From an uncultured Chloroflexota bacterium (GTDB lineage Bacteria; Chloroflexota; Anaerolineae; Anaerolineales; Anaerolineaceae), in assembly GCA_902795255.1 (NCBI GenBank), contig CADBKS010000020.1, positions 1-23,362 of the forward strand: a DNA stretch of 23,362 bases, in the 5' to 3' direction. This document shows, piece after piece, positions 1-23,362 of this stretch. The notes beneath the pieces are model-generated. The model was not told where the DNA came from. It did no database searches and saw nothing but the letters and a program-made list of their open reading frames with translations. Position numbers and translations under genes: made by a program. Numbering within the stretch: the first letter of the stretch is position 1; each line of letters opens with the position of its first letter.

Positions 1-259
1 GCTATAAGTGCCACTTTGATATGCGCGCGGCAGTCGGAAGAGAGTCTTTGCCTGATATGCCATGGTGCGGCTCGATCGCCCGTGTGTCTGCATAAGCCGT
101 TGGCCGCGCCTGGTTTGTTTAGCCGGGGCCGATCGGGCTGGCCTGTCGGCCACCCGTCAGCCCCGGCACCCCCCCGATTTAAATTACCTGAGACGACAGG
201 TTTATTTCTGCATCCAATGCTTATAAATGAACCTCGTCTGCAGCTAACGGCAGCTGCCT
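1..259 (+). repeat. Dispersed intergenic repeat, copy R1 (near full length)
   Basis: This copy opens with GCTATAAGTGCCACTTTGAT and runs to the AGCTGCCTGC block near 251-261. It shares ordered blocks with the inverted copy at 10950-11221: CACTTTGAT, CGGCAGTCGGAAG, a GTGTGTCTGCATAAG block, GGCCGCGCC, AGCCGGGG, CCCCGGCACCC, GAGACGACA and the terminal GCTGCCTGC. The segment at 129-151 also matches the far end of the copy at 19962-20104. The opening block recurs at 260-284, so R1 and R2 are in tandem with a period of about 259 bp. An 87-codon open frame crosses it, but the frame is not kept in other copies, so I read the element as non-coding. Its left limit may lie outside the window. Confidence 0.75.
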
Positions 260-306
260 GCTATAAGAGATCACTTTGATATGCTCATTGATTTCGGAAA
301 TGAGAA
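260..306 (+). repeat. Dispersed intergenic repeat, copy R2 (5' fragment)
   Basis: The block GCTATAAG..TCACTTTGATATGC at 260-284 repeats the start of R1 almost exactly. It is followed by TTTCGGAAATGAG, a variant of the TCGGAAGTGAG arm of other copies. The rest of the element is missing. The arms TCACTTT and AAATGAG can form the short first hairpin of the element. The remaining bases to 391 show no gene. Confidence 0.65.
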
Positions 307-391
307 CCCCGGCCAGTTCCGCCTCTTAAGATGCAGAACAGGATCCGCGCTGTATGGCGCACTTCAAAAAAGAAGCGCGCATCGTCCGGGA

Positions 392-422
392 ATCAAAAAA
401 AGCGCAGAGCGCTTTTTTTGAT
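392..422. terminator. Bidirectional rho-independent terminator
   Basis: This is a perfect inverted repeat: ATC, seven A, GCGC, a three-base AGA loop, then GCGC, seven T, GAT. The stem is 14 bp with a U tract on whichever strand is transcribed. It lies 37 bp beyond the stop of the minus-strand anti-sigma gene, and so should end the polA/sigma/anti-sigma transcription unit. It would work equally for plus-strand transcripts entering from the left. Confidence 0.85.
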
Positions 423-423
423 A

Positions 424-454
424 CTGCCGGCTGCCAGCTGCCTGCTGCCCGCTG
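424..454 (-). repeat. CNGGCAG heptamer tandem repeat
   Basis: On the plus strand this reads CTGCCGG, CTGCCAG, CTGCCTG, CTGCCCG, CTG: four 7-bp units that vary only at the sixth base. It begins 5 bp after the anti-sigma stop codon, between the stop and the terminator. Read with the gene, the unit is CNGGCAG. The same unit occurs twice after the arfB stop at 7855-7868. Confidence 0.7.
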
Positions 455-458
455 ATTT

Positions 459-1214
459 CTACTCCAGTTCCAGCTTCTTTTTCCGTTCCTTCAGGATGAC
501 GATCCCGGCAAGGCTGGCGGCCAGTCCGGCCCCGAGGCCCACTTTCAGCAGCAGCGAACGCTGATCCGCCTTTGCTTCCTCAACGCTGATGAACCCCTCC
601 GGCGGGTTGTCCGCATCCCAGGCCACACTTTCCCGGGCGCTGTTCTGTTCCTGTTCCAGACGCATCAGATATTCGATCCTGGGATTGCCGCCCATCACGC
701 CGTAGGAAGGCATGACCGCGGTATAGGATTCGGCTGCGGTATCATACCCATTGTCTTCCAGCACGATCCGCTCATCATAAAGAGCCATCGGCGCTTCTTC
801 TTCCTCAAGGCTCTGAACCTCTTCCGGTTCAATGCTCTTGGACTCATATGCCGGAGAGGTCGCAGCGGACTGCTGCCGGTCCGGTTTCGGCAGGTAGGGG
901 AACACAAACGTAAAGACCAGCGCCAGCGCGCAGAAAGCGGCTGCCGTCCGGAGCACCGGGAAAAGCCGTTCCCAGAACGGTTTCGGGCGAGCTTCCTCTG
1001 CCATGGCACGGGTGAGAATGTAATTCCGCGGCGGGGTCACGGTCGGGAGCTCCCGGATCATCGCCTTTACCTTCATCAGGTCTTCGACCTCCGAGGCGAC
1101 CGCGGGATCCTCTGCCATGCGCCCGGCAAATTTAACCACATCCTTCCGGTCCAGTTCCTGGTCCAGATAGCTGTTGATCAGTTCATAATCTTTCTGTGAT
1201 AATTTTTCCGACAT
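459..1214 (-). CDS. Anti-sigma factor, membrane-anchored, without zinc motif
   Basis: A 251-residue protein encoded 38 bp after the ECF sigma gene, and so very likely its cognate inhibitor. Residues 1-75 form an acidic/basic helical N-terminus (SYLDQELD at 16-23, EDPAVASEVEDLMKVK at 35-50) typical of cytoplasmic anti-sigma domains. There is no HxxxCxxC zinc motif, and the only cysteine (C95) lies in the membrane segment. A first membrane helix spans about 88-107. It is followed by an acidic low-complexity region (EEVQSLEEEE at 131-140), and a second hydrophobic helix spans 220-240 with a KERKKK stop-transfer tail. That places 108-219 outside the membrane as a possible sensory region. The start at 1214 is preferred because GAGGGAC lies just upstream; a frame opening at 1280 would overlap the sigma gene. 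The inducing signal cannot be read. Confidence 0.75.
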   Translation of the reverse strand: MSEKLSQKDYELINSYLDQELDRKDVVKFAGRMAEDPAVASEVEDLMKVKAMIRELPTVTPPRNYILTRAMAEEARPKPFWERLFPVLRTAAAFCALALVFTFVFPYLPKPDRQQSAATSPAYESKSIEPEEVQSLEEEEAPMALYDERIVLEDNGYDTAAESYTAVMPSYGVMGGNPRIEYLMRLEQEQNSARESVAWDADNPPEGFISVEEAKADQRSLLLKVGLGAGLAASLAGIVILKERKKKLELE

Positions 1215-1252
1215 CGCTGCAGTCCCTCTGTAGGTTAAACGGTGCTTCCCGG

Positions 1253-1843
1253 TCAAAAGTTCCCTTTTGATTTCAGACAATCCCGCATCCGGAGCCGCGC
1301 CCGCAGCAGACGGCTTTTGACCGTCCCGAGCGGGATCCGCAGCATATCCGCCACAGACTGGTAATCCATTTCCTGTACATCGACCAGCAGAAAAACCGTC
1401 CGGTAAACATCCGGCAGAAATTCGAAGCAGGACTTTATGGATTCCTGACGATCCTGGCGCTCGATTTGTTCCGCGGGAGATTCCGACGGATCGATCAGCC
1501 AGGGCGCGTCCTCATTTTCTTCCTCCCCGTCAGGGGACTGCGGGATCAGATCCTGTTCCGGGTGGCGCTTGTATTTGCGCAGTTCGTCATAACAGGCGTT
1601 GACCGTGATGCGCAGGATCCAGGGTTTGAAGGAGGTCCCGGAGAAAGAGCCGATATGGCGCCAGGCATTGATGAAGGCGGTCTGGGTAATGTCATCGGCG
1701 CGCGAAGCATCGCACATGATGCGCAGGGCAGTATTATATACAGCAGTCTGGTAATAGGTCACCAGACTGTTAAAGGCCTCCAGGCTTCCCTGAACGGCCA
1801 TTTCCAGATATCTGCTCTCGTTTTCGAATCCTTCGTTTGCCAT
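1253..1843 (-). CDS. ECF-type RNA polymerase sigma factor (sigma-70 family)
   Basis: A 196-residue protein with the two sigma domains of the ECF class. The sigma-2 region has FNSLVTYYQTAVYNTALR, then DDITQTAFINAWRH and FKPWILRITVNACYDELRKYKR. After an acidic linker rich in E and D, the sigma-4 region has LPDVYRTVFLLVDVQEMDY and the helix-turn-helix SVADMLRIPLGTVKSRLLRA. There is no sigma-3 domain. The start at 1843 is chosen because the upstream extension of the open frame runs into repeat copy R3, which begins 13 bp before this ATG. The ribosome binding site is weak (AGTGAAAA). It is followed by its anti-sigma gene and preceded by polA, all on one strand. It probably directs a stress or envelope regulon that is not identifiable here. 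Confidence 0.88.
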   Translation of the reverse strand: MANEGFENESRYLEMAVQGSLEAFNSLVTYYQTAVYNTALRIMCDASRADDITQTAFINAWRHIGSFSGTSFKPWILRITVNACYDELRKYKRHPEQDLIPQSPDGEEENEDAPWLIDPSESPAEQIERQDRQESIKSCFEFLPDVYRTVFLLVDVQEMDYQSVADMLRIPLGTVKSRLLRARLRMRDCLKSKGNF

Positions 1844-1855
1844 TATTTTTTCACT

Positions 1856-1936
1856 GCGATAAATGCTCACTTTGATATGCACCCGGCAGTCGGAAGTGAG
1901 AAAGGAGTCCGTATGGGGCAGGCGCGGCCCGCCTGA
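1856..1936 (+). repeat. Dispersed intergenic repeat, copy R3 (5' half)
   Basis: It contains GCGATAAATGCTCACTTTGA, then CGGCAGTCGGAAGTGAG and a GGCGCGGCCCG block, in the same order as other copies. CTCACTT (from 1867) and AAGTGAG form an inverted pair, the first hairpin. The distal half is missing. It fills nearly all of the gap between the polA stop (1944) and the sigma gene start (1843), with its left end against the sigma start. Confidence 0.75.
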
Positions 1937-1943
1937 ACGCCGG

Positions 1944-4724
1944 TCAGTCAGCGGCCGACAGGTTTCCCCAGTTCGTACCGCTTTTCGCTTCCGTCAGGAG
2001 CGGAACGGTCAGCGTGGTGATGTTTTCCATCACCTCCCGAACGGCATCCCTCGTCTGTGCCAGTTCCGCTTCCGGACATTCAAGCATCAGTTCGTCGTGG
2101 ACCTGCAGCAGGATCTGCGCGTGCAGCCCGCGTTTTCTCAGTTCGCCCGGGAGCCGGATCATCGCCGCTTTCAGGATGTCGGCAGACGTACCCTGGACCG
2201 GCGCATTGATCGCCTCCCGTTCTTCCCGGTTACGTAAATTGTAATTCATTTCCCGCTTTAAATTCGGAAAGTAACGTTTTCTGCCCGCAAGTGTGGAGAC
2301 CCAGCCCTGCTGCGCGGCGGTGACGCGGAGCCCGTCCAGGAAGGTTTTGACCTTCGGGAACTGTTCAAAATAGGCTTTGACAAAGGCGGATGCCTCCGCG
2401 GGCGTCAGACCGGTGGACTTGCTGAGCCCGAAGGAGCTCATCCCGTAGATCAGGCCGAAATTGATCGCCTTGGCATGCCGGCGCTGTTCCTTCGTGACTT
2501 CGTCAATGGAGCAGCGGTAGATCGCCGCGGCCGTTGCCGCATGGATGTCCTGTCCGGCATTGAAAGCCGCGATCATCGATTCATCCCCCGACATATGGGC
2601 CACGATGCGCAGTTCGATCTGGCTGTAGTCCACCGAAAGCAGCACACAGCCCGGGGCTGCGGTAAAAGCCGTGCGGATCTGCCTGCCGAGCTCCGTCCGC
2701 GTCGGGATATTCTGCAGGTTCGGTGAGGATGAGGCCAGACGCCCCGTCACCGTACCGGTCTGGCTGAACGAAGTATGGACCCGGCCGGTCTTCGGATCGA
2801 TGCTCTCCGGCAGGGTATCGGTATAAGTGCTCTTGAGTTTGCCCATTTCGCGGTAATCCAGGATCATATCGATCACCGGATGCTCCCCGCGCATTTCCTC
2901 CAGCACATCCGCGGCGGTCGAATAATTTCCGGCCGCAGTCTTTTTCGCTGTCCGCGGCGGAACGAGCCCCAGCGTATTGAACAGCGCGGCGGAAAGCTGC
3001 TGCGTGGAGTTGATATTGAAGGAATAACCGACCTCGTCACAGATCTGCTGCTCCAGGGCGGAGAGCCGTCCGCTCAGCTCCCCGGACATTTTTTTCAGGA
3101 ACTCCCGGTCCAGCAGGATCCCGCGCATTTCCATCTCCGCAAGCACCGGGATCAGTGGGACCTCCAGCTCGGTGAAGATCTTTTCGGTATTCTCCTGCCG
3201 CATGCGTTCCTGCAGGACCGGCATCAGCTGCAGCACCACTTCCGCGTCCGCAGCGGCATAAGGGGCCGCGTCCCGGACCGGGACCTGATCCATCGTGATT
3301 TGCTGTCTGCCTTTCCCGATGAGCGTTTCGATCTCGGTCATATGAATGCCGAGCAGGGCTTTTGCCATCGGTTTCAGTCCCAGCTGCCGGGATTCCGGAT
3401 CCAGGATCCAGCCCGCGATCATGCTGTCGAAGCGGATCCCCCGGACCGGCATGCCGCAGCGTTCCAGGACGATCATATCGTATTTGATGTTATGGCCGGC
3501 CTTGGGCAGGTCCGGATCGGCAAGGAACGGGCCGATCTTTTCCCGGACCGTTTCCAGGTCCGGTTGTTTTTCCCCGCCGGCATGGCCGACCGGGATGTAA
3601 TAGCCCGTACCGGGCTCCACAGCCAGGGAGATCCCGACCGGTTCACAGGACATCGGGTCGACCCCGGTGGTCTCCGTATCCAGCGCGAGGACAGACGCGG
3701 ACCTCAGTTTTTCGGCCAGTGCATCCAGCGCTTCCGGCGTATCCGCGATGATGGTGTTATTCTGATAAGGGCCTTCCGGCTCAGCCGGTACTTCGTCCGG
3801 CCCGAACAGCGACGGCTGCTGTGTCTCCTCCGGCACATAATTCGGGGCGAGGCGGCGCAGTTTCGGAAGCAGCGTATTGAATTTCAGCTCCCGGAACAGC
3901 CGGTCCATCGCAGGGAAATCGATATTGGCGGTGGAAGCTTCCTCAATGCGGAAATATTCCGGCAGGTCGGTGCGGATCCGGGCCAGATCACGGCTCAGAT
4001 AAGCCGAATCGCGGTTGTTTTCGATCTTTGTCTTCACCGCGCCCTTCAGTTTATCGATATTCGCGTAGATGTTATCCAGCGTATCATATGTTTCCAGCAG
4101 GCTCACGGCCGTCTTCGGCCCGATCCCCGGAACGCCCGGATAATTATCGGAAGGGTCACCGACCAGGGCTTTATAGTCCACCACCTGATCCGGCCTGACC
4201 CCGAGATATTCCTTCACCATCTCAGGCGTATAATCCTTTGATTCCGCCAGCTTGCCGCTGGGCAGACAGACCGTGATCCGGTCATCCACCAGCTGCAGCA
4301 GGTCCCGATCCCCGGTCATGATCCGGACATTGAATCCCTTTGCGGCCATCTGTTTGGCTGTGCTGCCGAGCACGTCATCGGCCTCATAGCCCTCAACTTC
4401 CAGACGGGGGACTCCGAGCGTATCGACCAGCTCCCGCATCCTTGTGATCTGGACCCGCAGGTCATCCGGCATCTTTGCCCGGGTCCCCTTGTAGGCCGGA
4501 TACAGGTCATTGCGGAAGGTTTTCCCGATATCGAAGGCCACCGCCAGATAGTCCGGATGGTTGTTCTCCAGCAGCCGCAGCAGGATCGAAGCAAATCCGT
4601 ACGTTCCGGCCGTCGGCTCCCCGTCCGGCGTCATCCAGCGGGAAGTATCTCCGCCGGCGGTCAGGGCAAAATAAGCCCGGTAAGCGGTCGCATGTCCGTC
4701 GATCAGGTAAAGGGTTTCAGTCAT
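1944..4724 (-). CDS. polA: DNA polymerase I with 5' nuclease and proofreading domains
   Basis: A 926-residue family A polymerase acting in repair and Okazaki-fragment processing. The 5'-nuclease domain spans about 1-295 (GYEADDVLG 112-120, MTGDRDLLQL 136-145, GDPSDNYPGVPGIGPKTA 189-206). The 3'-5' exonuclease domain spans about 325-505 with all three motifs intact (DTET 349-352, NIKYD 412-416, YAAAD 489-493), so proofreading is probably functional. The polymerase domain carries motif A (DYSQIELR 699-706), motif B (KAINFGLIYG 752-761) and motif C (VHDE 875-878). Length is normal. The start at 4724 is fixed by a clear AGGAGA ribosome binding site 7 bp upstream; an open frame continues 30 codons further into repeat R4 but has no support. 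Repeat copies flank the gene on both sides. Confidence 0.97.
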   Translation of the reverse strand: MTETLYLIDGHATAYRAYFALTAGGDTSRWMTPDGEPTAGTYGFASILLRLLENNHPDYLAVAFDIGKTFRNDLYPAYKGTRAKMPDDLRVQITRMRELVDTLGVPRLEVEGYEADDVLGSTAKQMAAKGFNVRIMTGDRDLLQLVDDRITVCLPSGKLAESKDYTPEMVKEYLGVRPDQVVDYKALVGDPSDNYPGVPGIGPKTAVSLLETYDTLDNIYANIDKLKGAVKTKIENNRDSAYLSRDLARIRTDLPEYFRIEEASTANIDFPAMDRLFRELKFNTLLPKLRRLAPNYVPEETQQPSLFGPDEVPAEPEGPYQNNTIIADTPEALDALAEKLRSASVLALDTETTGVDPMSCEPVGISLAVEPGTGYYIPVGHAGGEKQPDLETVREKIGPFLADPDLPKAGHNIKYDMIVLERCGMPVRGIRFDSMIAGWILDPESRQLGLKPMAKALLGIHMTEIETLIGKGRQQITMDQVPVRDAAPYAAADAEVVLQLMPVLQERMRQENTEKIFTELEVPLIPVLAEMEMRGILLDREFLKKMSGELSGRLSALEQQICDEVGYSFNINSTQQLSAALFNTLGLVPPRTAKKTAAGNYSTAADVLEEMRGEHPVIDMILDYREMGKLKSTYTDTLPESIDPKTGRVHTSFSQTGTVTGRLASSSPNLQNIPTRTELGRQIRTAFTAAPGCVLLSVDYSQIELRIVAHMSGDESMIAAFNAGQDIHAATAAAIYRCSIDEVTKEQRRHAKAINFGLIYGMSSFGLSKSTGLTPAEASAFVKAYFEQFPKVKTFLDGLRVTAAQQGWVSTLAGRKRYFPNLKREMNYNLRNREEREAINAPVQGTSADILKAAMIRLPGELRKRGLHAQILLQVHDELMLECPEAELAQTRDAVREVMENITTLTVPLLTEAKSGTNWGNLSAAD

Positions 4725-4732
4725 AAATTCTC

Positions 4733-4838
4733 TCCTGTAAGAGATCTCATTGAGATGCTCATGGCAATCGAAAGTGAGTGACCTGCTCCGTATGGGGCAG
4801 GCACGGGCAGCCATGTGTTTGCATAACTGCAGCTGTTT
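4733..4838 (+). repeat. Dispersed intergenic repeat, copy R4
   Basis: Blocks are TGTAAGAGATCTCATTGAGA, GCTCATGGCAATCGAAAGTGAG, a GTATGGGGCAGGCACGGGC variant shared with R3, and GTGTTTGCATAACTGCAGC. It fills the gap between polA and the upstream IS200-like gene. Its left end merges with the polA ribosome binding site (TCTCCT on the plus strand, 4731-4736). Confidence 0.75.
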
Positions 4839-4845
4839 GTCAGAT

Positions 4846-5334
4846 TCACCCGCACTCAGCAGCGGGCTGCTGCCGGGTCAGGATCAGCCGGCTGATCATA
4901 TCGTCGGTGATGCGGTCGCTTTCCGGACAGACAAAGCAGCTGCCCGACCAGAACGGTTCATCCTCCCGAAGGTCCAGGAAGAGATCCGCCTGCGCTTCCA
5001 GATCCGCACGAAACGCCCGGACCAGTTCCGCGGCGTCATCCTCCGGCCCCGTTTCGATCCGCCACTGGACGAACAGGGGACGGATCCGGATCTTTTCGGC
5101 AGGTTTTTCAATGCGCATCCCGGTCAGTAGCAGCGTCCGCCGGAACAGACGCGAAAGCCGTGCCGATAGGTACCGGCCGGACTTCTGCGGGAACAGCGTA
5201 AAGAGCAGCGGGCCCCGCATCTCATCGCCGGTCTCCCGGAAAAGGTCATCCACCCGGATAAAGTCCGCTTCCTCCGCGTAATCATCCGGATCGAAAAAGA
5301 TCAGATCGGGCATTTCATCGTAATTTTGATCCAT
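4846..5334 (-). CDS. Small IS200-like (Y1 transposase-derived) protein, probably not catalytic
   Basis: A 162-residue protein with a very acidic N-terminus (DPDDYAEEADFIRVDDLF) and then a compact domain: GPLLFTLFPQKSGRYLSARL, IRIRPLFVQWRIE, a helix with AAELVRAFRADLE, and FWSGSCFVCPESDRITDDMI near the end. The order of a GRYL-like strand, a RP..VQW strand, a helix and an FW...V strand before a final helix resembles IS200/RAYT-type Y1 transposases as they occur in Chloroflexota. The HUH pair expected in the RPLFVQW strand is absent, and I see no clear catalytic tyrosine, so it would be a domesticated or decayed relative. This assignment is from memory of the family pattern. The start at 5334 is preferred over 5430 or 5412, whose extra residues are atypical. 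A minus-strand TATAAT lies at 5422-5417. The gene ends beside repeat R4. Confidence 0.55.
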   Translation of the reverse strand: MDQNYDEMPDLIFFDPDDYAEEADFIRVDDLFRETGDEMRGPLLFTLFPQKSGRYLSARLSRLFRRTLLLTGMRIEKPAEKIRIRPLFVQWRIETGPEDDAAELVRAFRADLEAQADLFLDLREDEPFWSGSCFVCPESDRITDDMISRLILTRQQPAAECG

Positions 5335-5536
5335 CAGCCACCCCCGGTGCCGTATTGCAGGACAGTCTGAGGTCCGCCTTGCGGAATGCCGTCTTTTCCC
5401 GGTCCCGGTCATTAAAATTATATCAGTCAACAGAGCATAAATCCATCAATTCGCCTGACTGCATCAGGAAAGCGGTCCGTCATTCTGCTCATCCGCGGTC
5501 AGCGGCAAATGGCTTTTTATGTTACACTTTTCTTCT
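5335..5536. promoter_or_regulatory. Divergent intergenic region with a minus-strand -10 box
   Basis: This gap separates the minus-strand IS200-like gene from the plus-strand VanW gene, so both promoters should lie here. On the minus strand a perfect TATAAT is at 5422-5417, but no good -35 box sits 16-18 bp upstream. On the plus strand TACACT at 5523-5528 is 8 bp before the VanW ATG, but no ribosome binding site and no -35 box are evident. No repeat copy was recognised. Confidence 0.35.
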
Positions 5537-10949: not shown

Positions 10950-11221
10950 GAATGCAGGCAGCTCGAATCAAGAACCGCTGATAAACAGGCACCCACTGCT
11001 GATCGCGGATGAGGCCGATTAAGAAGCCGAGGGTATAGAAATAATTTTGTTGTCTCCGGCACACTAAATGGAGGGTGCCGGGGCAACGGGCGTCTTTAGC
11101 CGGCCCGTGCCCCCGGCTGCATAAACCGGGCGCGGCCAGCAGCCTATACAAACACACGAACGACCGGGCCGTGCCCTGCGAAGCACAGCCTTCCGCCTGC
11201 CACGCACACAATAAAGTGAGC
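10950..11221 (-). repeat. Dispersed intergenic repeat, copy R5 (full length, inverted)
   Basis: This is the longest copy, in minus orientation. Read on the minus strand it starts TCACTTTATTGTGTGC, then GGCAGGCGGAAGG, GCTTCGCAGGGCACGGCCCG, GTGTGTTTGTATAGGCTGC, GGCCGCGCCCGG, CCCCGGCACCC, GGAGACAACA, and ends AGCTGCCTGC. Inverted arms GGGCGCGGCC (11128-11137) and GGCCGTGCCC (11167-11176) pair with one G-U. With R1 it defines the maximal element of about 260-270 bp. It occupies nearly the whole gap between pdp and udk, with its left end about 40 bp before the udk start. Confidence 0.8.
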
Positions 11222-16144: not shown

Positions 16145-17803
16145 ATGGAACAATACAAAAACAACGCTGATGATATTCAGGCTTTGATCGACATCTTTCC
16201 GGCGAAGATCTCCGGTGTGCTGAACGCTTACGGAGAGCTGGACAAACTGATCGAAGTCGTGATGGATGTCGGGCGCGCGCCCTTCGCGCGCTACACCACG
16301 GGCGACCTGCCGATCTCCGAGGACGAAGTCACTTATGAAGATATTGACGCCGTCGTCGAAAAGATCGGGAGCTTTGACCTGGATAACCGCGCCGGAATGG
16401 AGCGGACCCTGCACCGCATTTCCGCGATCCGCAACCGGCGGAACCGCATCATCGGACTGACCTGCCGCGTCGGCCGGGCTGTCTTCGGGACGCTGGACAT
16501 CATCGCCGACTATATCGGTTCGGGGAAAAGCCTGCTGATCCTGGGCAAACCGGGGATCGGCAAGACCACCATGCTGCGGGAAGCCGCGCGCATTCTTTCA
16601 GAGAAAAAGCGCGTCGTCATCGTGGATACCTCCAACGAGATTGGCGGGGACGGCGACGTTCCGCACCCGGCGGTCGGCAATGCCCGCCGCCTGCAGGTCG
16701 CCCAGCCGACACTGCAGCATGAAGTGATGATCGAAGCCGTGGAGAACCATAATCCGGAGGTCATCATTATCGACGAGATCGGGCGGGAACTGGAAGCCCA
16801 GGCCGCGCGCACGATCGCCGAGCGGGGCGTACAGCTGATCGGCACTGCTCACGGGCAGACGATCAACAACCTGCTGATGAACCCGACGCTTTCGGACCTG
16901 ATCGGCGGGATCGAGTCCGTCACGCTTTCCGATGAGGAAGCCAAACGCCGCGGGACCCAGAAAACGGTCCTCGAACGGCGTTCCCCACCCACCTTCGACG
17001 TGCTGGTGGAGATCCGCCAACGCGATCAGGTGATCGTTTATCAGGACGTTGCGGAAGCCGTGGATGCCCTGGTCCGCGGGATCGAACTGCAGCCGGAGAT
17101 GCGGACAAAGAACCGGAACGGCCAGATCATCCGCGAAAAAGCGCCGGCCCCGGTGCTGGAAGGGGCGGGCTCTGCCGATCCGAACGCTAAAGGCGGAAAC
17201 GGGAAAAAGGGAAAACAGCCGCTTTCCCGCGAACAGGCCAATATCGTCGAGATCAGCGGAAAGAGCAAACCCGTCCTCAGCGAATGGAAACAGGGCGGGG
17301 CCCGGGAACTAATGAAGGATCCGCAGTGGAAAAAGGAAACGATCCATGTGTATTGTCACGGGGTCGCACGGAACCGGCTCAATGAGGCCGCGACCCGGTT
17401 GGACGTCCCGGTCGCCGTGGTCAACAGCCTGGAAGAGGCGGATCTGCTGATGACACTGCGGCCCTATTACCGGGAACGCCAGTCCGTGATCGTTGAGGCC
17501 GAAGAACGCGGTTTGCCGATCTATGTGCTGCGGTCCAACACGACCGCGCAGATCGAATATACGCTGGCCAACCTGCTGAAGATCGAAGTGCAGGAGCAGG
17601 CCGTGAACTGGGAAGATGTCGAGGAGGAAACGGTTTCCGCGATCCGCTCGGTCCTGAGCGGGGAAGTCAGCTGGATCGACCTTTCCCCGGCGGACCGCTC
17701 GATCCGCCGGATCCAGCAGCAGATGGTCGAACAGGCCAACCTGATCTGCCAGCCTTTCGGCAAGGAGCCGAAGCGGCGCCTGCGCATTTACCGCAATAAC
17801 TGA
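16145..17803 (+). CDS. AAA ATPase with C-terminal R3H-like nucleic-acid-binding domain
   Basis: A 552-residue protein of the Ycf45/SpoIIIAA-like group. An N-terminal region (1-120) precedes the ATPase core with Walker A ILGKPGIGKTT (132-142), DTSNEIGGDGDVPHPAVGNARR (161-182) and Walker B VIIIDEIG (206-213), then AHGQTINNLL and an arginine-rich ERRSPPTFDVLVEI segment. A glycine/lysine-rich linker (about 340-365) leads to a second alpha/beta region. The C-terminal 60 residues (IRRIQQQMVEQANLICQPFG then KEPKRRLRIYRN) match the R3H fold. The histidine of RxxxH is replaced by Q, which I believe is usual in this group. It probably binds single-stranded nucleic acid; the cellular role is unclear. 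Thymidylate kinase starts 10 bp downstream. A TATAAA box at 16130-16135 lies 9 bp before the ATG. Confidence 0.85.
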   Translation: MEQYKNNADDIQALIDIFPAKISGVLNAYGELDKLIEVVMDVGRAPFARYTTGDLPISEDEVTYEDIDAVVEKIGSFDLDNRAGMERTLHRISAIRNRRNRIIGLTCRVGRAVFGTLDIIADYIGSGKSLLILGKPGIGKTTMLREAARILSEKKRVVIVDTSNEIGGDGDVPHPAVGNARRLQVAQPTLQHEVMIEAVENHNPEVIIIDEIGRELEAQAARTIAERGVQLIGTAHGQTINNLLMNPTLSDLIGGIESVTLSDEEAKRRGTQKTVLERRSPPTFDVLVEIRQRDQVIVYQDVAEAVDALVRGIELQPEMRTKNRNGQIIREKAPAPVLEGAGSADPNAKGGNGKKGKQPLSREQANIVEISGKSKPVLSEWKQGGARELMKDPQWKKETIHVYCHGVARNRLNEAATRLDVPVAVVNSLEEADLLMTLRPYYRERQSVIVEAEERGLPIYVLRSNTTAQIEYTLANLLKIEVQEQAVNWEDVEEETVSAIRSVLSGEVSWIDLSPADRSIRRIQQQMVEQANLICQPFGKEPKRRLRIYRNN

Positions 17804-17813
17804 GGGGGCGGGT

Positions 17814-18446
17814 ATGTTTATCACTTTTGAAGGCCCGGACGGCAGCGGGAAAACCACGCAGCTGCGCCTGCTTGCCCCGGTCCTGCAGGAAAAAGGGTTT
17901 GAAACCGTCCTGACCCGTGAACCGGGCGGGACCGATATCGGGGACCAGATCCGTTCGGTCATCATGAACATGAAAAACAAGTCGATGGACCCGCGTACGG
18001 AGATCCTGCTGTTCTGCGCCTCCCGCGCGCAGCTTGTGGAAGAACTGATCCGCCCGTCGCTCGCGGCCGGAAAACTGATCCTGTGCGACCGCTACGCCGA
18101 TTCAACGATGGCTTACCAGGGGTACGGCCACGGCCTGGACCGCGGGGATCTGGAACGGCTGCTCTCGTTTGCCACCGGCGGTCTGAAGCCGGATCTGACG
18201 CTGCTGTTTGACATCTCCGCGGAAGCGGGACTGCGACGGCGGCTGAAAAACCACGAGGAATGGAACCGGATGGATGACTATGCCCTGCAGTTCCACGAAA
18301 GGGTCCGGGGCGGATATCTCGCCATGGCGGCAGCCGAACCGGAACGCTGGGCCGTCATCAACGCGGACCGGGCGCCGGAAGAGATCCATGAAGAAGTGGT
18401 CTCTCTCCTGCTGGACAGGCTGTCCCGGGCACGGGATGCCGTCTGA
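17814..18446 (+). CDS. tmk: Thymidylate kinase
   Basis: A 210-residue P-loop kinase that converts dTMP to dTDP. The motif FEGPDGSGKTTQ (P-loop 7-14) is followed by TREPGGTDIGDQIR (34-47), the DRY motif (92-94) in LCDRYADSTMAYQGYG, and a lid region with RRRLKNHEEWNRMDDY. Length is normal. GGGGGCGGGT lies just before the ATG. The start is 10 bp after the R3H/AAA gene, so the two are co-transcribed. Confidence 0.95.
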   Translation: MFITFEGPDGSGKTTQLRLLAPVLQEKGFETVLTREPGGTDIGDQIRSVIMNMKNKSMDPRTEILLFCASRAQLVEELIRPSLAAGKLILCDRYADSTMAYQGYGHGLDRGDLERLLSFATGGLKPDLTLLFDISAEAGLRRRLKNHEEWNRMDDYALQFHERVRGGYLAMAAAEPERWAVINADRAPEEIHEEVVSLLLDRLSRARDAV

Positions 18447-18473
18447 TCCGCGGCTCACATCTCAGAATTCTGT

Positions 18474-18500
18474 AAGAATTCCCCGCAGCGGGTTTTCTTA
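18474..18500 (+). terminator. Weak terminator-like hairpin after tmk
   Basis: An AAGAATTCCCCG ... CGGGTTTTCTT segment gives a short CCCG/CGGG stem with a CAG loop, outer AAGA/TCTT pairing and a TTTT tract. The stem is weak and imperfect. Confidence 0.35.
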
Positions 18501-18515
18501 AGATAAAATAAACCA

Positions 18516-18538
18516 TATACTTTATGTGAGGCATTAAG
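18516..18538 (+). promoter_or_regulatory. -10 box and ribosome binding site of the DsbA-cyclophilin gene
   Basis: TATACT at 18516-18521 is a good -10 box, although no clear -35 box sits 17 bp upstream. GTGAGG at 18526-18531 gives a Shine-Dalgarno at proper spacing before the ATG at 18539, so this gene probably has its own transcript. Confidence 0.45.
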
Positions 18539-19813
18539 ATGAAAAAATATTCACTGTTTTTAGCCGTACTGTCAGCGGTCCTTTTCAGCTGCGCCGCGTT
18601 TGCCGCGGACGGAGAATGGACCGCCTGGGAAGCTGACCTTTCCGGCGCTGCCGCGGTCGAATGCGAGATCGCTCAGCCGCAGCTCGTCAATGAAAGCAAC
18701 ATGGCCATCCTCGGCGATGTCACCGAAGAAGACTGGGCGATCGGCCCGGAAGACGCCGTGATGACGCTGGTCGAATACGCGGATTTCCAGTGCCCGTACT
18801 GCTCCCGCGCCGGCCTGACCGCCATCGAGTTCCAGGCCGCCCATCCGGATGAAGTGCGCTACGTCTACCGCCACTTCCCGCTGAGCTTCCATGAAAAGGC
18901 GCCGATGTCCGCCTACGCCGCGGACGCCGCCGGCAAACAGGGGTTCTTCTTCGACGCGGAAGCCTTCCTCTATGAGACCCAGAGCGAATGGACCAACCTT
19001 GAATCCCTTGAGGTCTTCGACACCTGGCTCCGCGAACACATCGCCGAAGCGATCCCGGAACTGGATCTCGAACAGTGGACCGCGGATTATGAATCCGAAG
19101 AGGTCCGCTCCGTTGTGGACGGCGCCTTCGACAAAGTAGCCGCCACCGGCCTGATCAGCGGGACCCCGACATTCTTCGCGAACTTCTTCCCCGTCAGCTA
19201 TGACCCGGCAGTGCTCGAAGAGCACCTCAAAGCCTTCAAAATGATGCACAATTACAAGACCGAATGCCCGGCCCTGGCTGTCGAAGAAGGGAAGGACTAT
19301 CGGGCCACCCTGCATACCAACGCCGGCGATATCACCATTGACCTGTACGCCGCCGAAGCGCCGAACCTGGTCAGCAACTTCATGGTCCTGGCCGCGGACG
19401 GCTGGTACAACGGGAACTTCTTCCACAACGTCGTCCCGGGCTTCATTGCCCAGACCGGCGACCCCAGCGGCACCGGGATCGGACTTGCCGGATACTTCAT
19501 CAACAACGAAAATCTGGATAACGGCGGTTTCAATGAACCCGGCGCGGTCGCGATGGCAGCCAACGGCAACGGCCAGAACAGCTCTCAGTTCTTCATCGCC
19601 ATGGACCTGGACGCCTACTACCGGAATGATGCCGTCTCCAAGAATCCCGAGCTGACCGCCGAAGAGCAGGCCGCCAGAGCTGCCGAAAAGATCGGCATCC
19701 TGAACGCCAGATATTCCGTCTTCGGCCGTGTCGCGGAAGAGTCCCTGGAGATCCTGCCGCAGATCAATACGAACACCGTCATCAACAGCATCGACATCGA
19801 AGTCCGCGGCTGA
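18539..19813 (+). CDS. Secreted DsbA-like thioredoxin / cyclophilin fusion
   Basis: A 424-residue exported protein. The N-terminal signal segment (about 1-22) ends with AFA; C18 makes an atypical lipobox (LFSC) the alternative. Residues about 65-240 are a DsbA/DSBA-like thioredoxin fold: VTLVEYADFQCPYC style active site with CPYC at 85-88, FPLSFHEKAP (113-122), and the cis-proline loop GTP ending at 210. Residues about 252-423 are a cyclophilin (TNAGDITIDLYAAEAPNLVSNF, 260-281; PGFIAQTGDPSGTG, 300-313; QNSSQFFIAM, 346-355). The catalytic arginine of FHR is asparagine here (FHN, N297), and the histidine equivalent to H126 of human CypA is tyrosine (Y392). It may couple disulfide formation and prolyl isomerisation, or only chaperone binding, outside the membrane. 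It is single and flanked by its own promoter and a hairpin. Confidence 0.88.
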   Translation: MKKYSLFLAVLSAVLFSCAAFAADGEWTAWEADLSGAAAVECEIAQPQLVNESNMAILGDVTEEDWAIGPEDAVMTLVEYADFQCPYCSRAGLTAIEFQAAHPDEVRYVYRHFPLSFHEKAPMSAYAADAAGKQGFFFDAEAFLYETQSEWTNLESLEVFDTWLREHIAEAIPELDLEQWTADYESEEVRSVVDGAFDKVAATGLISGTPTFFANFFPVSYDPAVLEEHLKAFKMMHNYKTECPALAVEEGKDYRATLHTNAGDITIDLYAAEAPNLVSNFMVLAADGWYNGNFFHNVVPGFIAQTGDPSGTGIGLAGYFINNENLDNGGFNEPGAVAMAANGNGQNSSQFFIAMDLDAYYRNDAVSKNPELTAEEQAARAAEKIGILNARYSVFGRVAEESLEILPQINTNTVINSIDIEVRG

Positions 19814-19840
19814 TCCCGCACTTCCATCTGATGAGAACCC

Positions 19841-19865
19841 GACCGCCGGCCGATCCCCGGCGGTC
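19841..19865 (+). terminator. Terminator-like hairpin after the DsbA-cyclophilin gene
   Basis: GACCGCCGG (19841-19849) pairs perfectly with CCGGCGGTC (19857-19865) across a seven-base loop, 28 bp after the stop codon. The tail AGTTCATTT is only partly U-rich, so efficiency is uncertain. Confidence 0.6.
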
Positions 19866-19961
19866 AGTTCATTTAAAACGGGGAAAACCACCGGTCGGGG
19901 TAAGTTCTATTAAAAGCCTGAGACCGGTGCCGACGAGGCGCTCCATATGGTACAGGGATTT

Positions 19962-20104
19962 CAGATGCCGACAGCTCAGCCCGATCGGCCCGGTTAATAA
20001 ACCCGGGCGCGGCCAGCAGCTTATGCAAACACACGAACGCCCGTGCCGCGCCCTGCGAAGCACAGCCCTCCGACTGCCATGAATACTCTTATTAAATCAC
20101 TTTC
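19962..20104 (-). repeat. Dispersed intergenic repeat, copy R6 (inverted)
   Basis: Minus orientation. Read on the minus strand it holds CATGGCAGTCGGAGGG, GCTTCGCAGGGCGCGGC, CGTGTGTTTGCATAAGCTGC, GGCCGCGCCCGG, a GTTTATTAACC loop region, and GCCGATCGGGCTGAGCTGTC, which matches R1 at 128-147. The arms GGGCGCGGC (20005-20013) and GCCGCGCCC (20045-20053) are perfect inverted repeats, and GCCCGG/CCGGGC at 19988-20008 forms a second hairpin. Its left end stops 4 bp before the -35 box of the rib promoter. The gap from 19866 to 19961 shows nothing else. Confidence 0.8.
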
Positions 20105-20108
20105 AGTA

Positions 20109-20137
20109 TTGACAGATTTTTCAGACCGGTATAAAAT
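20109..20137 (+). promoter_or_regulatory. Promoter of the riboflavin-transport operon
   Basis: A perfect TTGACA (20109-20114) is followed after 17 bp by TAAAAT (20132-20137), one mismatch from the -10 consensus. Transcription should start about 20144, some 15 bp before the FMN riboswitch. This is the best sigma-70-type promoter in the window. Confidence 0.85.
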
Positions 20138-20158
20138 GCCGGATAGATACAAATCAAT

Positions 20159-20270
20159 ACTTCGGGGCAGGGTGAGGCAAAAGCCAATTCCCGACCGGTG
20201 GTAAAGTCCACGAGCGAAAGCTGATCCGGTGCAATTCCGGAACCGACGGTACAGTCCGGATGAAAGAAGT
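20159..20270 (+). ncRNA. FMN riboswitch (RFN element)
   Basis: The conserved RFN blocks appear in order: ACTTCGGGGCAGGGTGAGG, AATTCCCGACCGGTGGTAAAG, TCCACGAGC, TGATCCGGTGCAATTCCGGA, ACCGACGGTACAGTCCGGAT, and GAAAGAAGT. ACTTC at 20159-20163 pairs with GAAGT at 20266-20270 as P1. The RNA binds FMN. It lies between a consensus promoter and a rho-independent terminator, so FMN should cause premature termination and shut off the downstream transporter genes. The 5' CGGGGC (20163-20168) is complementary to GCCCCG in the terminator's 5' arm (20289-20294), giving a plausible antiterminator when FMN is absent. Confidence 0.95.
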
Positions 20271-20288
20271 GGTGCAAACCGTTAATAG

Positions 20289-20311
20289 GCCCCGGAAACC
20301 GGGGCTTTTTT
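20289..20311 (+). terminator. Riboswitch-controlled terminator upstream of ribX
   Basis: GCCCCGG (20289-20295) pairs with CCGGGGC (20299-20305) across AAA and is followed by six T (20306-20311). It is the expression platform of the FMN riboswitch. The GTG start of the permease lies only three bases after the U tract, so the GGGGC of the 3' arm may also be the only ribosome-binding-like sequence. Confidence 0.92.
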
Positions 20312-20314
20312 ATT

Positions 20315-21112
20315 GTGAACAGCAATTATCCGTCTCAAAAAAACAGCGACAAAAAAATCAGCCGGGCCCGCTGGATCCCGCCGCTTTCGATCATCGGCGG
20401 GCTGGCCCTGTGGGAGATCCTCGTCCGGATGAGCAATTATCCGGCGTTCATCCTGCCGGCCCCGTCCCGGATCTTCACCCGCTTCCTCTCCGCCAGCCGG
20501 GCCGGGATCCTGTGGCCGAATGTCTGGGTCTCATTTTACGAAGTACTGCTGGGGCTCCTGATCGGTACGGCCGCGGCCCTGGCTGCCGGTTACTTTCTGG
20601 CCCACTCACCGATCGCCGAAAAGATCATCTTTCCCTACATCGTCGTCAGTCAGGCGATCCCGCTGGCCGCGATCGCTCCGCTGCTGATCATCTGGTTCGG
20701 GTCCGGGGTCAAACCGAAGATCCTGATCTGCGCCCTGGTGGTCTTTTTCCCGCTGCTGATCAATATCCTCGTCGGCTACCGGGAACTGGAACACAACCTG
20801 AATGACCTGATGACTTCCATGAAGGCCGGGCGCTGGGCCAGGCTGCGTTATCTTGAGCTGCCGGGAACGCTGCCCGTCCTGCTCGGCGGGCTGCGCATCA
20901 GTGCGACCCTCTCGGTCATCGGCGCCGTTGTCGGGGAACTCTCCGGTGCCGACGCAGGCCTCGGATATCTGATCAATATCGCCCGCGGCCAGTATGATAC
21001 GGCGCTGGTTTTCGTCGCCGTGATCATGCTGATGCTGATCGCGCTCCTCCTGTACGGAACCGTGATATTGCTGGAAAGGAAACTGCTCGTCTGGAACCAG
21101 AAAGATGAGTAA
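20315..21112 (+). CDS. ribX: ABC transporter permease, riboflavin type
   Basis: A 265-residue inner-membrane permease of the BPD_transp_1 (SsuC/ThiX-like) family. A polar lysine-rich N-terminus is followed by about six membrane helices. The EAA loop that contacts the ATPase is visible around residues 165-190 (MTSMKAGRWARLRYLELPGT then LPVLLGGLRISATL). Function as a riboflavin importer is inferred from the FMN riboswitch directly upstream and from the known RibXY system of Chloroflexus. The frame opens at a GTG at 20315, just after the terminator U tract, with GGGGC as a weak ribosome binding site. The next in-frame ATG (about 20429) would cut into the conserved N-terminal helix. The gene overlaps or abuts the binding-protein gene. 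Confidence 0.85.
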   Translation: MNSNYPSQKNSDKKISRARWIPPLSIIGGLALWEILVRMSNYPAFILPAPSRIFTRFLSASRAGILWPNVWVSFYEVLLGLLIGTAAALAAGYFLAHSPIAEKIIFPYIVVSQAIPLAAIAPLLIIWFGSGVKPKILICALVVFFPLLINILVGYRELEHNLNDLMTSMKAGRWARLRYLELPGTLPVLLGGLRISATLSVIGAVVGELSGADAGLGYLINIARGQYDTALVFVAVIMLMLIALLLYGTVILLERKLLVWNQKDE

Positions 21113-21137
21113 TTTACAAAAAATGATCGGAGTTATG

Positions 21138-22112
21138 ATGAAAAAATTATTATTGACCGCTGTTTTGTTTGTTCTGCTGTGCTGCAGCCCGGTCTGCAGT
21201 GCGGACCCGGATTCATTCACCCTGCCCTGCGGGTTCGTCCCCAGCGTACAGTTCGCCCCGCTTTATGTCGGGCTGGAGAAGGGCTTTTTTGCCGAAGAGA
21301 ATATCGATCTTGAACTGGACCACAGCATGGAGACCGATACCGTCGCCCTGGTCGGGGCCGGAAAACTGCCTTTCGGGATCTGCTCCGGAGAGCAGGTACT
21401 GCTCGGCCGCGAACAGGGGCTGCCGCTGGTCTATATCACCAACTGGTACCAGAATTACCCGGTGGGCGTCCTCGCGCTGGCTGAAAGCGGGATCGCTTCC
21501 ATGGAAGATCTCAAGGGCAAAAGCGTCGGGATCCCGATGCTCAGCGGGGCCAGCTATATCGGCTTTGAAGCCATGCTCCGCAAAGCCGGCATGACGGACA
21601 GCGATGTACGGCTTGAATCCGTCGGCTACACCCAGTCGGAGCTGCTCGTCGCCGGCAAGATCGACGCCGCGGTCGTTTATACGACCAACGAACCGGAACA
21701 GCTGAAGGCGCTCGGGTATGACATCAACCTTTTCACGCTCGCGGAGATGACCTCCATGGTCGGGAACGGGCTGGTCACCAACGAACAGATGATCCGCGAA
21801 AATCCGGATCTGGTCGCCCGCATGGTCCGCGCGTTCGTCAAATCGATCCGCTGGACCCGTGAAAACGAAGATGAAGCCTTTGAGATCTGCAAAAAATACG
21901 TGGACGGGCTGGCTTCGGCTGAAGATCCGGAGCTGCAGAAACAGGTCCTCTACCGCTCGGCAGATTATTATGACGCGGGCCCGCTCGGCTTCGGATTCTC
22001 CGATGAGACGGCCTGGCAAAACATGAGTGACCTGCTGCAGGACATGGGAATGATCTCCGGCCGGGAAAGCGTTGATTCGGCTTTCACCAATGAATTCATC
22101 CCCGCGGAATGA
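21138..22112 (+). CDS. ribY: ABC transporter substrate-binding protein, riboflavin type (NMT1/THI5-like)
   Basis: A 324-residue exported binding protein. The signal peptide is MKK, a leucine-rich core and VCSA. The mature part opens with the NMT1/THI5 pattern: PCGFVPSVQFAPLYVGLEKG and FFAEENIDLEL. It continues with an ALVGAGKLPFGICSGEQVLL segment, SMEDLKGKSVGIPMLSG, and VVYTTNEPEQLKALGYDI. Proteins of this family bind thiamine precursors, aromatic sulfonates or riboflavin; riboflavin is inferred from the FMN riboswitch and the RibY precedent. The start at 21138 is favoured by GGAG five bases upstream (21129-21132); ATGs at 21135, 21123 and 21105 are possible, the last overlapping the permease stop. 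The ATPase gene follows 6 bp downstream. Confidence 0.85.
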   Translation: MKKLLLTAVLFVLLCCSPVCSADPDSFTLPCGFVPSVQFAPLYVGLEKGFFAEENIDLELDHSMETDTVALVGAGKLPFGICSGEQVLLGREQGLPLVYITNWYQNYPVGVLALAESGIASMEDLKGKSVGIPMLSGASYIGFEAMLRKAGMTDSDVRLESVGYTQSELLVAGKIDAAVVYTTNEPEQLKALGYDINLFTLAEMTSMVGNGLVTNEQMIRENPDLVARMVRAFVKSIRWTRENEDEAFEICKKYVDGLASAEDPELQKQVLYRSADYYDAGPLGFGFSDETAWQNMSDLLQDMGMISGRESVDSAFTNEFIPAE

Positions 22113-22118
22113 TCCCGA

Positions 22119-22901
22119 ATGGAAAAGAAACTCTTCCTTGAAGCCTCCCATCTCAGCATGACCTTTCCGTCAAAAACCGGCGGTCTGCATGTGCTCGGCG
22201 ATATCAGCCTGAAGCTGTACCAGCATGAATTTGTCTGCATCAGCGGACCTTCCGGTGCCGGGAAAAGCACGCTGATCCGGATCCTCGGCGGTTTGCTGAA
22301 GCAGACCTCCGGAGAGCTGACCTATGCAGACGGGAAGGTACCGGATCCGTGCGCGGTGGTTTTTCAGAATTCCAACCTGCTGCCATGGATGCGCACCGCG
22401 GAAAATATCGCGCTTCCGCTCATCATTCACGGGACCCCGAAAAAGGAAGCCATGAAGGAAGCGGAACGCTGGCTTGAGATCATCGGGCTCAGGGAGTTCG
22501 CCGGCGAATGGCCCAACAACCTTTCCGGAGGGATGGCCCAGCGGGTCGCGATCGCCAGGGCCCTGATCCAGAAACCGCAGCTGCTCCTGATGGATGAACC
22601 GCTCGGATCGCTGGACGCCATGACCCGCGAACAGATCTCCCTGGAACTGATGTCCTTCCGCGAACAGATCGATGCCACCGTGCTGATGGTGACCCATTCC
22701 ATCTCGGAAGCCCTGCTGCTTTCCGACCGGATCCTCCTTTACAGCGAGCGTCCGGCACGGATCGTGGATGAGATCACGGTCCCCTTCGCGCGTCCGCGCA
22801 AAGGAGAGCTGCGGGATGACCCGCAATTCCTGGAGATGACCCGCATGCTGCGCGGGATGCTGTTCACGCAGAAGCCTCAAACAGCCGGCATGATCCGGTA
22901 A
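22119..22901 (+). CDS. ABC transporter ATP-binding protein of the riboflavin-type importer
   Basis: A 260-residue ATPase of the nitrate/sulfonate/taurine (SsuB/ThiZ-like) subfamily that should power the adjacent permease. Walker A GPSGAGKST is at 43-51, the Q-loop VVFQNSNLLPW at 80-90, the signature LSGGMAQRVAIARA at 135-148, Walker B LLLMDEP at 155-161, and the switch histidine H193 in VTHSISEA. All catalytic residues are present. It starts 6 bp after the binding-protein stop without a good ribosome binding site, so translational coupling is likely. Its presence makes a complete importer under the FMN riboswitch. Confidence 0.92.
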   Translation: MEKKLFLEASHLSMTFPSKTGGLHVLGDISLKLYQHEFVCISGPSGAGKSTLIRILGGLLKQTSGELTYADGKVPDPCAVVFQNSNLLPWMRTAENIALPLIIHGTPKKEAMKEAERWLEIIGLREFAGEWPNNLSGGMAQRVAIARALIQKPQLLLMDEPLGSLDAMTREQISLELMSFREQIDATVLMVTHSISEALLLSDRILLYSERPARIVDEITVPFARPRKGELRDDPQFLEMTRMLRGMLFTQKPQTAGMIR

Positions 22902-22924
22902 GAGCCGGAAAGACAAACAAATCA

Positions 22925-23110
22925 TGACCACCGGCTTTGCCGGTGGTTTGCTCTGCGCCTGTTCCAGCGTGCGCTTGCAAGCGCAGAGCAGTGAACGCCT
23001 TGCAGTGCACATGGCATTCGGAAGTGAGTGCTTCGCAGGGCGCGGCCCGGTTATTCGTGTGTTTGCACAGGCTGCTTGCCGCGCCCCGGCACCCCCATTA
23101 ATGAGTCAGG
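22925..23110 (+). repeat. Dispersed intergenic repeat, copy R7, with 5' hairpin extension
   Basis: It starts with a perfect hairpin ACCACCGGC, TTT, GCCGGTGGT (22927-22947). TTTGCTCTGCGCCTG and the palindrome GCGCTTGCAAGCGC follow. The family core comes next: GTGCACATGGCATTCGGAAG, GTGAGTGCTTCGCAGGGC, GCGGCCCGG, GTGTGTTTGCACAGGCTGC, GCCGCGCCCCGGCACCCCC. The third hairpin of R1, R5 and R6 is missing here. The opening hairpin lies 25 bp after the last rib gene and may also end that transcript, although only TTTG follows it. Confidence 0.75.
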
Positions 23111-23225
23111 GCGATAGTTTTTTCCGCATAGCCATCATTTAGACTCAACAGACATTACGAAAACCTTTCATCTGAAGATCTTCCGTTCCATCTGCCTATC
23201 ATGCGGTTTTTCACTGATACAATCA
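23111..23225. other. Non-coding spacer between repeat copies R7 and R8
   Basis: About 115 bp of lower GC content with a T6 run near 23119. No open frame with a ribosome binding site, no RNA gene and no further repeat copy is seen. Confidence 0.4.
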
Positions 23226-23362
23226 GGACCACCGGCTGAGCCGGTGGTTTGCTCTGCGCCTGAAAGGCGCTGGTACCCGCGTGCGCTTGTAAGCGCATGT
23301 CTGTAAACGCTTTGCTGTGCACATGGCTATCGGAAGGGATTGCTTCGCAGGGCGCGGCCCGG
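23226..23362 (+). repeat. Dispersed intergenic repeat, copy R8, cut by the window end
   Basis: This is a tandem neighbour of R7 with a 301 bp period. It has the same hairpin ACCACCGGC, TGA, GCCGGTGGT (23228-23248) and TTTGCTCTGCGCCTG. A short CGCCT/AGGCG hairpin and a GCGCTTGTAAGCGC palindrome follow. The core then begins: GTGCACATGGCTATCGGAAG, GCTTCGCAGGGCGCGGCCCG, running off the window at 23362. The insert CTGGTACCCGC distinguishes it from R7. Confidence 0.75.

Follow-up and report, generated by a model that had tools for sequence, protein, structure and literature searches.

Several families of short, non-coding repeats have been described in bacteria, and they provide the background for the repeats considered here, which were found in a 23,362-nucleotide stretch of DNA (contig CADBKS010000020.1 of assembly GCA_902795255.1; "the window") from an uncultured Chloroflexota bacterium of the family Anaerolineaceae. 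The window holds eight copies, A to H, of a hairpin-capable repeat, and its relatives carry the same core within two kinds of element, Type I and Type II, that differ in their ends. In Streptococcus pneumoniae, BOX and RUP have inverted ends and target duplications, and RUP and SPRITE are AT-rich, in the portions of PMC3049150 that treat them. As portrayed there, these families resemble the window repeats in being intergenic, about 100-200 bp long, present in up to more than 100 copies and modular (boxA/B/C), with lone modules, and further in RNAalifold structure, nested insertions and probable mobilisation in trans by an insertion sequence (IS). Type I differs from BOX and RUP, as given in that account, in having no inverted ends; the repeats here also showed no target duplication, have a GC-rich core, and share this one core among elements with unlike ends.

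IS-derived miniature inverted-repeat transposable elements (MITEs), as outlined in sections of PMC10969869, offer a second comparison: Type II is short and non-coding, with inverted ends that resemble the left end seen beside a transposase gene of a related genome. Unlike the MITEs of those sections, the repeats have a conserved GC-rich internal fold, with no target duplication seen, and Type I lacks inverted ends. The ERIC/RU elements of enterobacteria (compare PMC2759123) are likewise about 127-168 bp long, intergenic, foldable and MITE-like. Their host lineage is a different one. They are not known to have a core in common with other element types. REP/REPIN sequences with their REP-associated tyrosine transposases (RAYTs), in the extracts of PMC2817692 and PMC3733652 that concern them, are also high-copy extragenic palindromes, and Y1 transposase genes are present in the genomes compared here. 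Against the picture in those extracts, no RAYT gene flanked by the core was found at the 12 Y1 loci examined, the present repeats are far longer, and they have no constant GTAG tag followed by a single palindrome. Finally, palindrome-associated elements (PATE) derive from IS200/IS605. Type I resembles them in its T-rich left site, in the hairpins close to its two ends and in lacking both inverted ends and target duplication, and an IS200-like right end is present in window copies G and H, but Type I ends were found on no IS200/IS605 element.

Taken with these systems, the repeats are likely to form a superfamily of non-autonomous, MITE-like elements, restricted to one lineage, that share a foldable core and are moved in trans.

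Repeat copies in the window

The window repeats are real and above chance; they are non-coding and hairpin-capable, and they look mobile. Searches with GTGTGTNTGYAYARGC-N3-6-GCCGCGCC gave four window matches (A, E, F, G), as compared with a mean of 0.00 in 100 shuffles. With up to three mismatches, GCTTCGCAGGGCRCGGCMCGG matched four times (E, F, G, H; shuffle mean 0.02), as did GGCAGTCGGAAGTGAG (A, C, D, G; shuffle mean 0.34), and TCCGTATGGGGCAGGCRCGG, common to C and D, matched twice (shuffle mean 0.00). Pairwise blastn within the window linked A-E-F-G-H, and also A-C, B-C-D, C-D, D-F and D-G.

An earlier note on this DNA, which had reported the eight copies, placed all of them correctly and above shuffled expectation, but the copies are unequal and modular, and an IS200-like end adjoins both G and H. 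The strong copies are E, F, G and H, the last of them cut; A has diverged, and what B, C and D share is mainly the 5' module. The description of blocks in fixed order was too strong, since the six exact blocks occur together in no copy: among window copies CACTTTGAT is confined to A, B and C, and of the GGGCGCGGC hairpin module, E, F and G have an intact form, H the beginning (the window end cuts it), A and D a degenerate form, and B and C nothing. The limits drawn for A and E were too wide, with the repeated part stopping at about 209 and 11037 by blastn, and the DNA formerly included as the 5' parts of G and H (about 22919-22985 and 23221-23296) is of another kind and matches an IS200-like flank. 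By fold prediction, clear pairing of the CTCACTT/AAGTGAG arms is limited to C and D. The revised features are as follows.

1..209, +: copy A, Type I-like with diverged core (match to covariance model R1 at 29-114), truncated at the window start; blastn with E and F, R1
258..306, +: copy B, 5' module alone (CTGCTATAAGAGATCACTTTGATATGC...); direct repeat D4, blastn to C and D
1854..1936, +: copy C, 5' module with CTCACTT/AAGTGAG hairpin and a different middle; pattern, blastn, fold
4732..4838, +: copy D, 5' module with degenerate hairpin 2 having 3 G-U pairs; pattern, blastn, fold, R1
11037..11221, -: copy E, 5' module, mini-hairpin, hairpin 2 and hairpin 3; patterns, blastn, R1
11177..11185, -: copy E mini-hairpin, TGC-TTC-GCA
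11128..11176, -: copy E hairpin 2 (GGGCACGGC...GCCGCGCCC), one A-C mismatch
19962..20104, -: copy F, core like E with diverged 5' module; patterns, blastn, R1
20054..20062, -: copy F mini-hairpin, TGC-TTC-GCA
20005..20053, -: copy F hairpin 2, 9 perfect pairs
22919..22985, +: IS200-like right-end palindrome joined to G; 82% identity to locus L193, 2073-1996
22986..23097, +: copy G core (R1 match 23013-23089), without hairpin 3; patterns, R1
23029..23037, +: copy G mini-hairpin, TGC-TTC-GCA
23038..23086, +: copy G hairpin 2, 9 perfect pairs
23221..23296, +: IS200-like right-end palindrome joined to H; 88% identity to L193, 2072-1997
23297..23362, +: copy H core, truncated at the window end; R1 (31.6 bits, model positions 1-39)

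In copy D, a CCTGCTCC/GGGGCAGG hairpin replaces the mini-hairpin. Copies A, B, C and D start with a CTGCTATAAG-like Type I end.

Distribution in related genomes

Comparison of polA places the window beside four metagenome-assembled genomes (MAGs) at 82-83% amino-acid identity: RUG11948 (G001), RUG13631 (G002), RGIG1627 from goat abomasum (G003) and Flexilinea sp. RGIG2505 from goat jejunum (G004). The close relatives that bear the core come mostly from ruminant guts. Copy E found 22 blastn matches in G001, one in G003, and none in G002 or G004, and from these matches the covariance model R1 was built, using 20 sequences (alignment A5) made up of three window copies (E, F, G), 13 Type I and four Type II elements. 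R1 recovered A (38 bits, E 5e-8) and H (E 2e-6), neither of which had been used in building it; D was weak (12.4 bits, E 0.22), and B and C gave no match.

At E<=0.1, R1 matched at least 150 sites in G001, 23 in G003, 13 in G004 and two in G002, with none in four further Anaerolineaceae/Anaerolineales genomes. The G001 figure comes from the 150 candidates scored out of 1,066, and all 150 matched, bearing out the prediction that many copies would be found elsewhere. Another genome, G050, had 27 matches at E<=0.01. Across the nearest GTDB family, 5 of 147 genomes matched (E<=0.001, with stricter filters), and in a class-wide draw 3 of 396 did so, with real matches in G001 alone; the other two genomes had one match each (L313, L314), chance-like and in coding DNA as judged from 251 bases each. 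The repeat family is thus restricted to a lineage.

An exact window-copy pattern was found in no genome contig and no viral contig, which tells little because the diverged copies of relatives escape it; three more exact patterns were likewise absent from viral contigs. Blastn of one Type I element against plasmids and of copy E against phages gave no match, a weak absence given one query each. No Rfam family (4,227 models) matched the window repeats or nine loci of relatives in the comparison that the earlier note had proposed, with nothing at E<=1 over the window repeats, and a literature search of limited depth turned up no published name for the family. A coding role was rejected by eye: Type I and the window copies place the conserved loop bases in different frames, and in Type II a stop comes early in that frame.

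Structure and covariation of the core

The core spans about 75-100 bases and consists of a purine-rich lead-in, a mini-hairpin TGC-TNC-GCA, hairpin 2 with 8-9 pairs around a loop of about 30 bases, and usually a GC-rich hairpin 3. Covariation, proposed earlier as a check, was found in the main stem as double changes between subfamilies. On A5, five of the eight hairpin 2 pairs show double changes, 97.5% of cells pair, and none of 500 shuffles is as high in covariation score or in double-changed cells. For four of the five double-changed pairs the evidence comes from one set of four Type II rows, where the changes could represent a single base pair added on both arms.

Whole elements were compared in alignment A9 (19 Type I copies from three genomes), in which 91.6% of cells are paired over P1, the mini-hairpin, hairpin 2 and hairpin 4, and the number of double-changed cells and the score were reached by 0 of 500 shuffles. 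One P1 pair is AU in 10 copies, UA in six and GU in two, at another P1 position 13 of the 19 copies fail to pair, and two of the four hairpin 4 pairs show double changes. These elements of about 182 bp give modest support to two further helices, P1 and hairpin 4. A long-range pairing of GGAGGG with CACCCC was also considered and set aside, as it was not clearly better at any register and the G004 copies are without GGAGGG.

The mini-hairpin, placed in 153 of 154 distinct copies, is close to invariant, with T at the first loop position in all 153, T146 C3 G3 A1 in the middle, and C in 152 at the last; placement tolerated three substitutions from TGCTTCGCA, so that this sample leans to conserved copies. 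In G050 it shows a coordinated extension, TGCTGC-TTC-GCAGCA. Its bottom strand reads GC-GNA-GC, that is, a d(GCGNAGC) GNA loop, and GNA or GNNA loops with at least two G-C pairs form extraordinarily stable DNA mini-hairpins according to the portion of PMC4686876 on such loops. Type I elements of G001 and G050 also have GCGAAAGC, of the GNNA kind, on the top strand in the hairpin-2 loop; window copies are without it.

Differences from consensus (80 Type I / 36 Type II copies) amount to 1.3% / 0.3% in the mini-hairpin, 3.8% / 6.5% in the hairpin-2 arms and 6.7% / 15% in the hairpin-2 loop, with 10% in Type I hairpin-3 arms. The picture at individual sites is mixed, with some constraint or recent spread and much decay. 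Among the same copies, G-U mismatches outnumber A-C (71 vs 46, one-sided p 0.013), an excess that was unclear on the first 62 + 23 copies. As to whether RNA would be the active form, the G-U excess leans to the + strand and the mini-hairpin loop rule to bottom-strand DNA.

Type I and Type II elements

Type I elements have ends that are sharp against unrelated flanks (22 aligned copies), with CTRCTATAAGAGCTCACTTTGC (CTRCTATAAG) at the 5' end and hairpin 4, GGTTACC and TTTT at the 3' end, for a length of about 182 bp. There are no terminal inverted repeats, as CTRCTATAAG and GGTTACC are not inverted copies, but the subterminal 8-bp helix P1 is present. With up to three mismatches, G001 has 78 (5') and 74 (3') end matches and G050 has 19 and 15; G004 has a full-length but diverged version. 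A lone hairpin-3 module occurs in G004 (L010, 15233-15263; 94% over 32 bases to the G001 Type I consensus). In 63 copies, T makes up 63-75% at -4 to -1 of the left flank, as against 92-97% for TTTT at the right end, so that the right T-run is probably owned by the element and the left one is target. Hairpins near both ends and the lack of target duplication are the PATE-like features that Type I displays.

Type II elements, by comparison, have GGRGCTGYCGCA terminal inverted repeats, and the core starts about 28 bases inside. Both 12-bp ends (up to two mismatches each) were found in 25 rows corresponding to 24 elements of 125-428 bp, L177 being counted twice for its two cores. Terminal inverted repeats, short length and non-coding content are as in MITEs of the DDE type. 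At L179 in G002, a DUF772 transposase gene, of the type known as IS1182, lies behind a Type II-like left end. PF13751 transposases score above cut-off in G001, G002 and G003 but not in G004 or G050 among the five genomes, and those three are the genomes rich in or holding Type II. The most likely mover of Type II, on this evidence, would be an IS1182-like DDE transposase. At one site in G001 (L296, G001:C47), a Type II element is joined to the 5' end of a Type I element at its GGAG, which has the look of a junction point. L177 (G003:C167) is a 295-bp Type II element with two oppositely oriented cores between its inverted ends.

IS200-like ends and Y1 transposase loci

The 5' parts of G and H match (82% and 88%) DNA at L193 in G003 that lies behind an IS200-like Y1 transposase gene, 40-117 bp beyond its stop codon, and there a core of another subfamily directly follows the matched stretch. 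Twelve Y1/RAYT-type loci, of 21 matches, were examined. R1 found the core at two of the 12, L193 and L196, not as paired flanking repeats, and in both it looks like a neighbouring element rather than the gene's own flanking repeat. None of the 12 had a RAYT gene flanked by two inverted core copies, and blastn of the Type I consensus matched no end in any of them. The earlier suggestion of a folded RNA or a MITE/REP-like element was right in kind, but a REP in the strict sense finds no support at these loci.

RAYT-size Y1 genes are present in all five genomes. Those at L195, L197 and L203 (G050) and L196 (G001) are flanked by other inverted repeats of their own, which are near-perfect long palindromes at L195 and L197 and GGGGACGGTT-type repeats at L196 and L203; these are separate REP-like families.

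Genomic context and broken copies

Context was assigned with a crude caller of open reading frames (ORFs; at least 100 aa) for 154 distinct cores, of which 30 overlap an ORF and 21 lie at an edge. Type I elements in tandem spacers are antisense in 25 cases and sense in six (two-sided p about 0.0009), with 15 divergent and 15 convergent; the 26 placed Type II elements are convergent in 17, sense in six, antisense in one and divergent in two. For all types together there are 33 antisense vs 13 sense (p 0.0045). The GC skew of the flanks was uninformative on orientation relative to replication. The five window cores fall, by the same caller, into one divergent, one in an ORF and three at an edge. 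Manual reading of the ORF list with Pfam matches shows C, D, E and F antisense to their neighbours, which for C are sigma-factor and polA genes on its flanks; D starts some 7 bp upstream of the codon at which polA probably begins. Tandem arrays, of 21-bp and 7/14-bp repeats, lie near polA in relatives (L001, 19894-20209; L008, 16311-16642).

Modules are separable, as in BOX, with B standing alone in the window and half elements in G001. All 10 inspected orphan right halves in G001 start between the hairpin-2 loop and hairpin 3, and five left halves (L289-L293) end in the hairpin-2 5' arm or loop, while G050 breaks elsewhere (L295 after 19 bases; an internal deletion in L231). Breakage at hairpin 2 is suggested, with assembly error in MAGs as an alternative.

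Proposed mobility and competing explanations

Under the explanation favoured here, of MITE-like elements moved in trans, one core would be carried with different ends; Type II would be moved by an IS1182-like DDE transposase and Type I by an enzyme of the single-strand (HUH) type, with the folded strand as substrate. The lack of inverted ends in Type I, its position to the right of T-runs and the lack of a fixed duplication are as expected of an HUH type enzyme. Pairing is kept between subfamilies and many single copies are decaying, so that the fold probably serves spread rather than a job at each site. Several results weigh against this explanation. The number of double-changed pairs is by itself unexceptional, being reached by 58 of 500 shuffles for hairpin 2 on A5 and by 35 of 500 for the five such pairs on A9, and the lower variation of arms and mini-hairpin relative to the loop could reflect a role at each site, or else recent spread and detection bias. 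In the 25 Type II rows, target duplications of 2-12 bp were no more frequent than in the control, the G002 IS at L179 showed a left end but no right one, and the two PF13751 genes with searched flanks (L309 and L310, in G001 and G003) are without Type II ends. For Type I, no fixed target duplication was found in 57 copies, joined flanks fold no better than a mismatched control in an empty-site palindrome test, and no autonomous element with Type I ends, that is, the moving enzyme, was found, the examined Y1 loci being without them.

Of the rival explanations, functional structured RNAs made by the host, cis-regulatory or trans-acting and with transposition incidental, would account for the conserved fold and loop, the joining by Type I P1 of the 5' end to a 3' segment followed by a T-run, and the G-U excess. 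This appears unlikely, as copies vary from two to at least 150 among related genomes, ends are sharp in unrelated flanks with no consistent neighbour gene, and one core lies within elements of unlike ends and without an Rfam match. Transcription terminators, bidirectional or one-way, that the host maintains at the ends of genes would suit the GC-rich hairpins and the location of Type II mostly downstream of the left-hand gene (17 convergent and six sense of 26). Type I is as often divergent as convergent (15 and 15) and in tandem spacers mostly antisense (25 vs 6), and copies sit behind existing terminators at L048, L061 and L064, all of which makes terminators highly improbable. A SINE-like retroelement, with a U-tailed RNA of Type I copied into T-runs by reverse transcriptase to leave 5'-truncated copies, is to be regarded as very unlikely, if slightly less so than terminators; the element-owned TTTT at the right end fits it, and the 10 inspected right halves start where a reverse transcriptase could stall, yet 5' truncation does not give the five left halves that end inside hairpin 2, and G050 has Type I copies but no RVT_1 match. 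Least credible is movement as REP/BIME repeats by a RAYT (TnpA-REP) transposase. RAYT-size genes do occur in five of five genomes, the repeats are short, intergenic, high-copy palindromes, and GGAG-like bases precede the mini-hairpin in many copies; against this, other inverted repeats flank those genes at L195, L196, L197 and L203, the core occurs unpaired at two of 12 Y1 loci, and the GGAG-like bases are gone in G004 copies.

A variant of the trans-mobilised MITE explanation, put forward tentatively and on balance doubtful, is that the core is a portable structured cassette acquired by Type I, by IS1182-like MITEs and by IS200 right ends, aiding spread as folded single-stranded DNA. The near-invariant TGC-TNC-GCA, a stable GNA mini-hairpin on the bottom strand, could in that case be a device for single-strand recognition or protection. 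If MITE-like mobility is correct, a bacterial MITE superfamily is documented in a little-studied gut Chloroflexota lineage, one foldable core in elements with different ends would point to different transposition systems, the DNA fold and particularly the GNA mini-hairpin would be testable as a determinant of mobility, and the repeats would supply markers and likely breakpoints for these fragmentary genomes. Should the cassette proposal fail, the annotation is still useful in marking these stretches as mobile repeats rather than regulatory RNAs.

Other features of the window

Adjoining copy B, the segment 342-420 contains two short perfect palindromes with A/T-runs and is terminator-like; a weak Rfam match to isrK there (E 0.8) is probably chance. 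A 552-aa protein encoded at 16145-17803 (+) combines a SpoIIIAA-like ATPase region with a Pfam PTPase domain (PF25516), and a 424-aa protein at 18539-19813 (+) joins a thioredoxin/DsbA-like part to a cyclophilin-type prolyl isomerase part. A flavin mononucleotide (FMN) riboswitch (Rfam RF00050, 98.5 bits) at 20154-20275 (+) lies ahead of genes at 20315-22901 that encode an ABC transporter set of permease, NMT1-like binding protein and ATPase, probably an importer of riboflavin or a flavin precursor.

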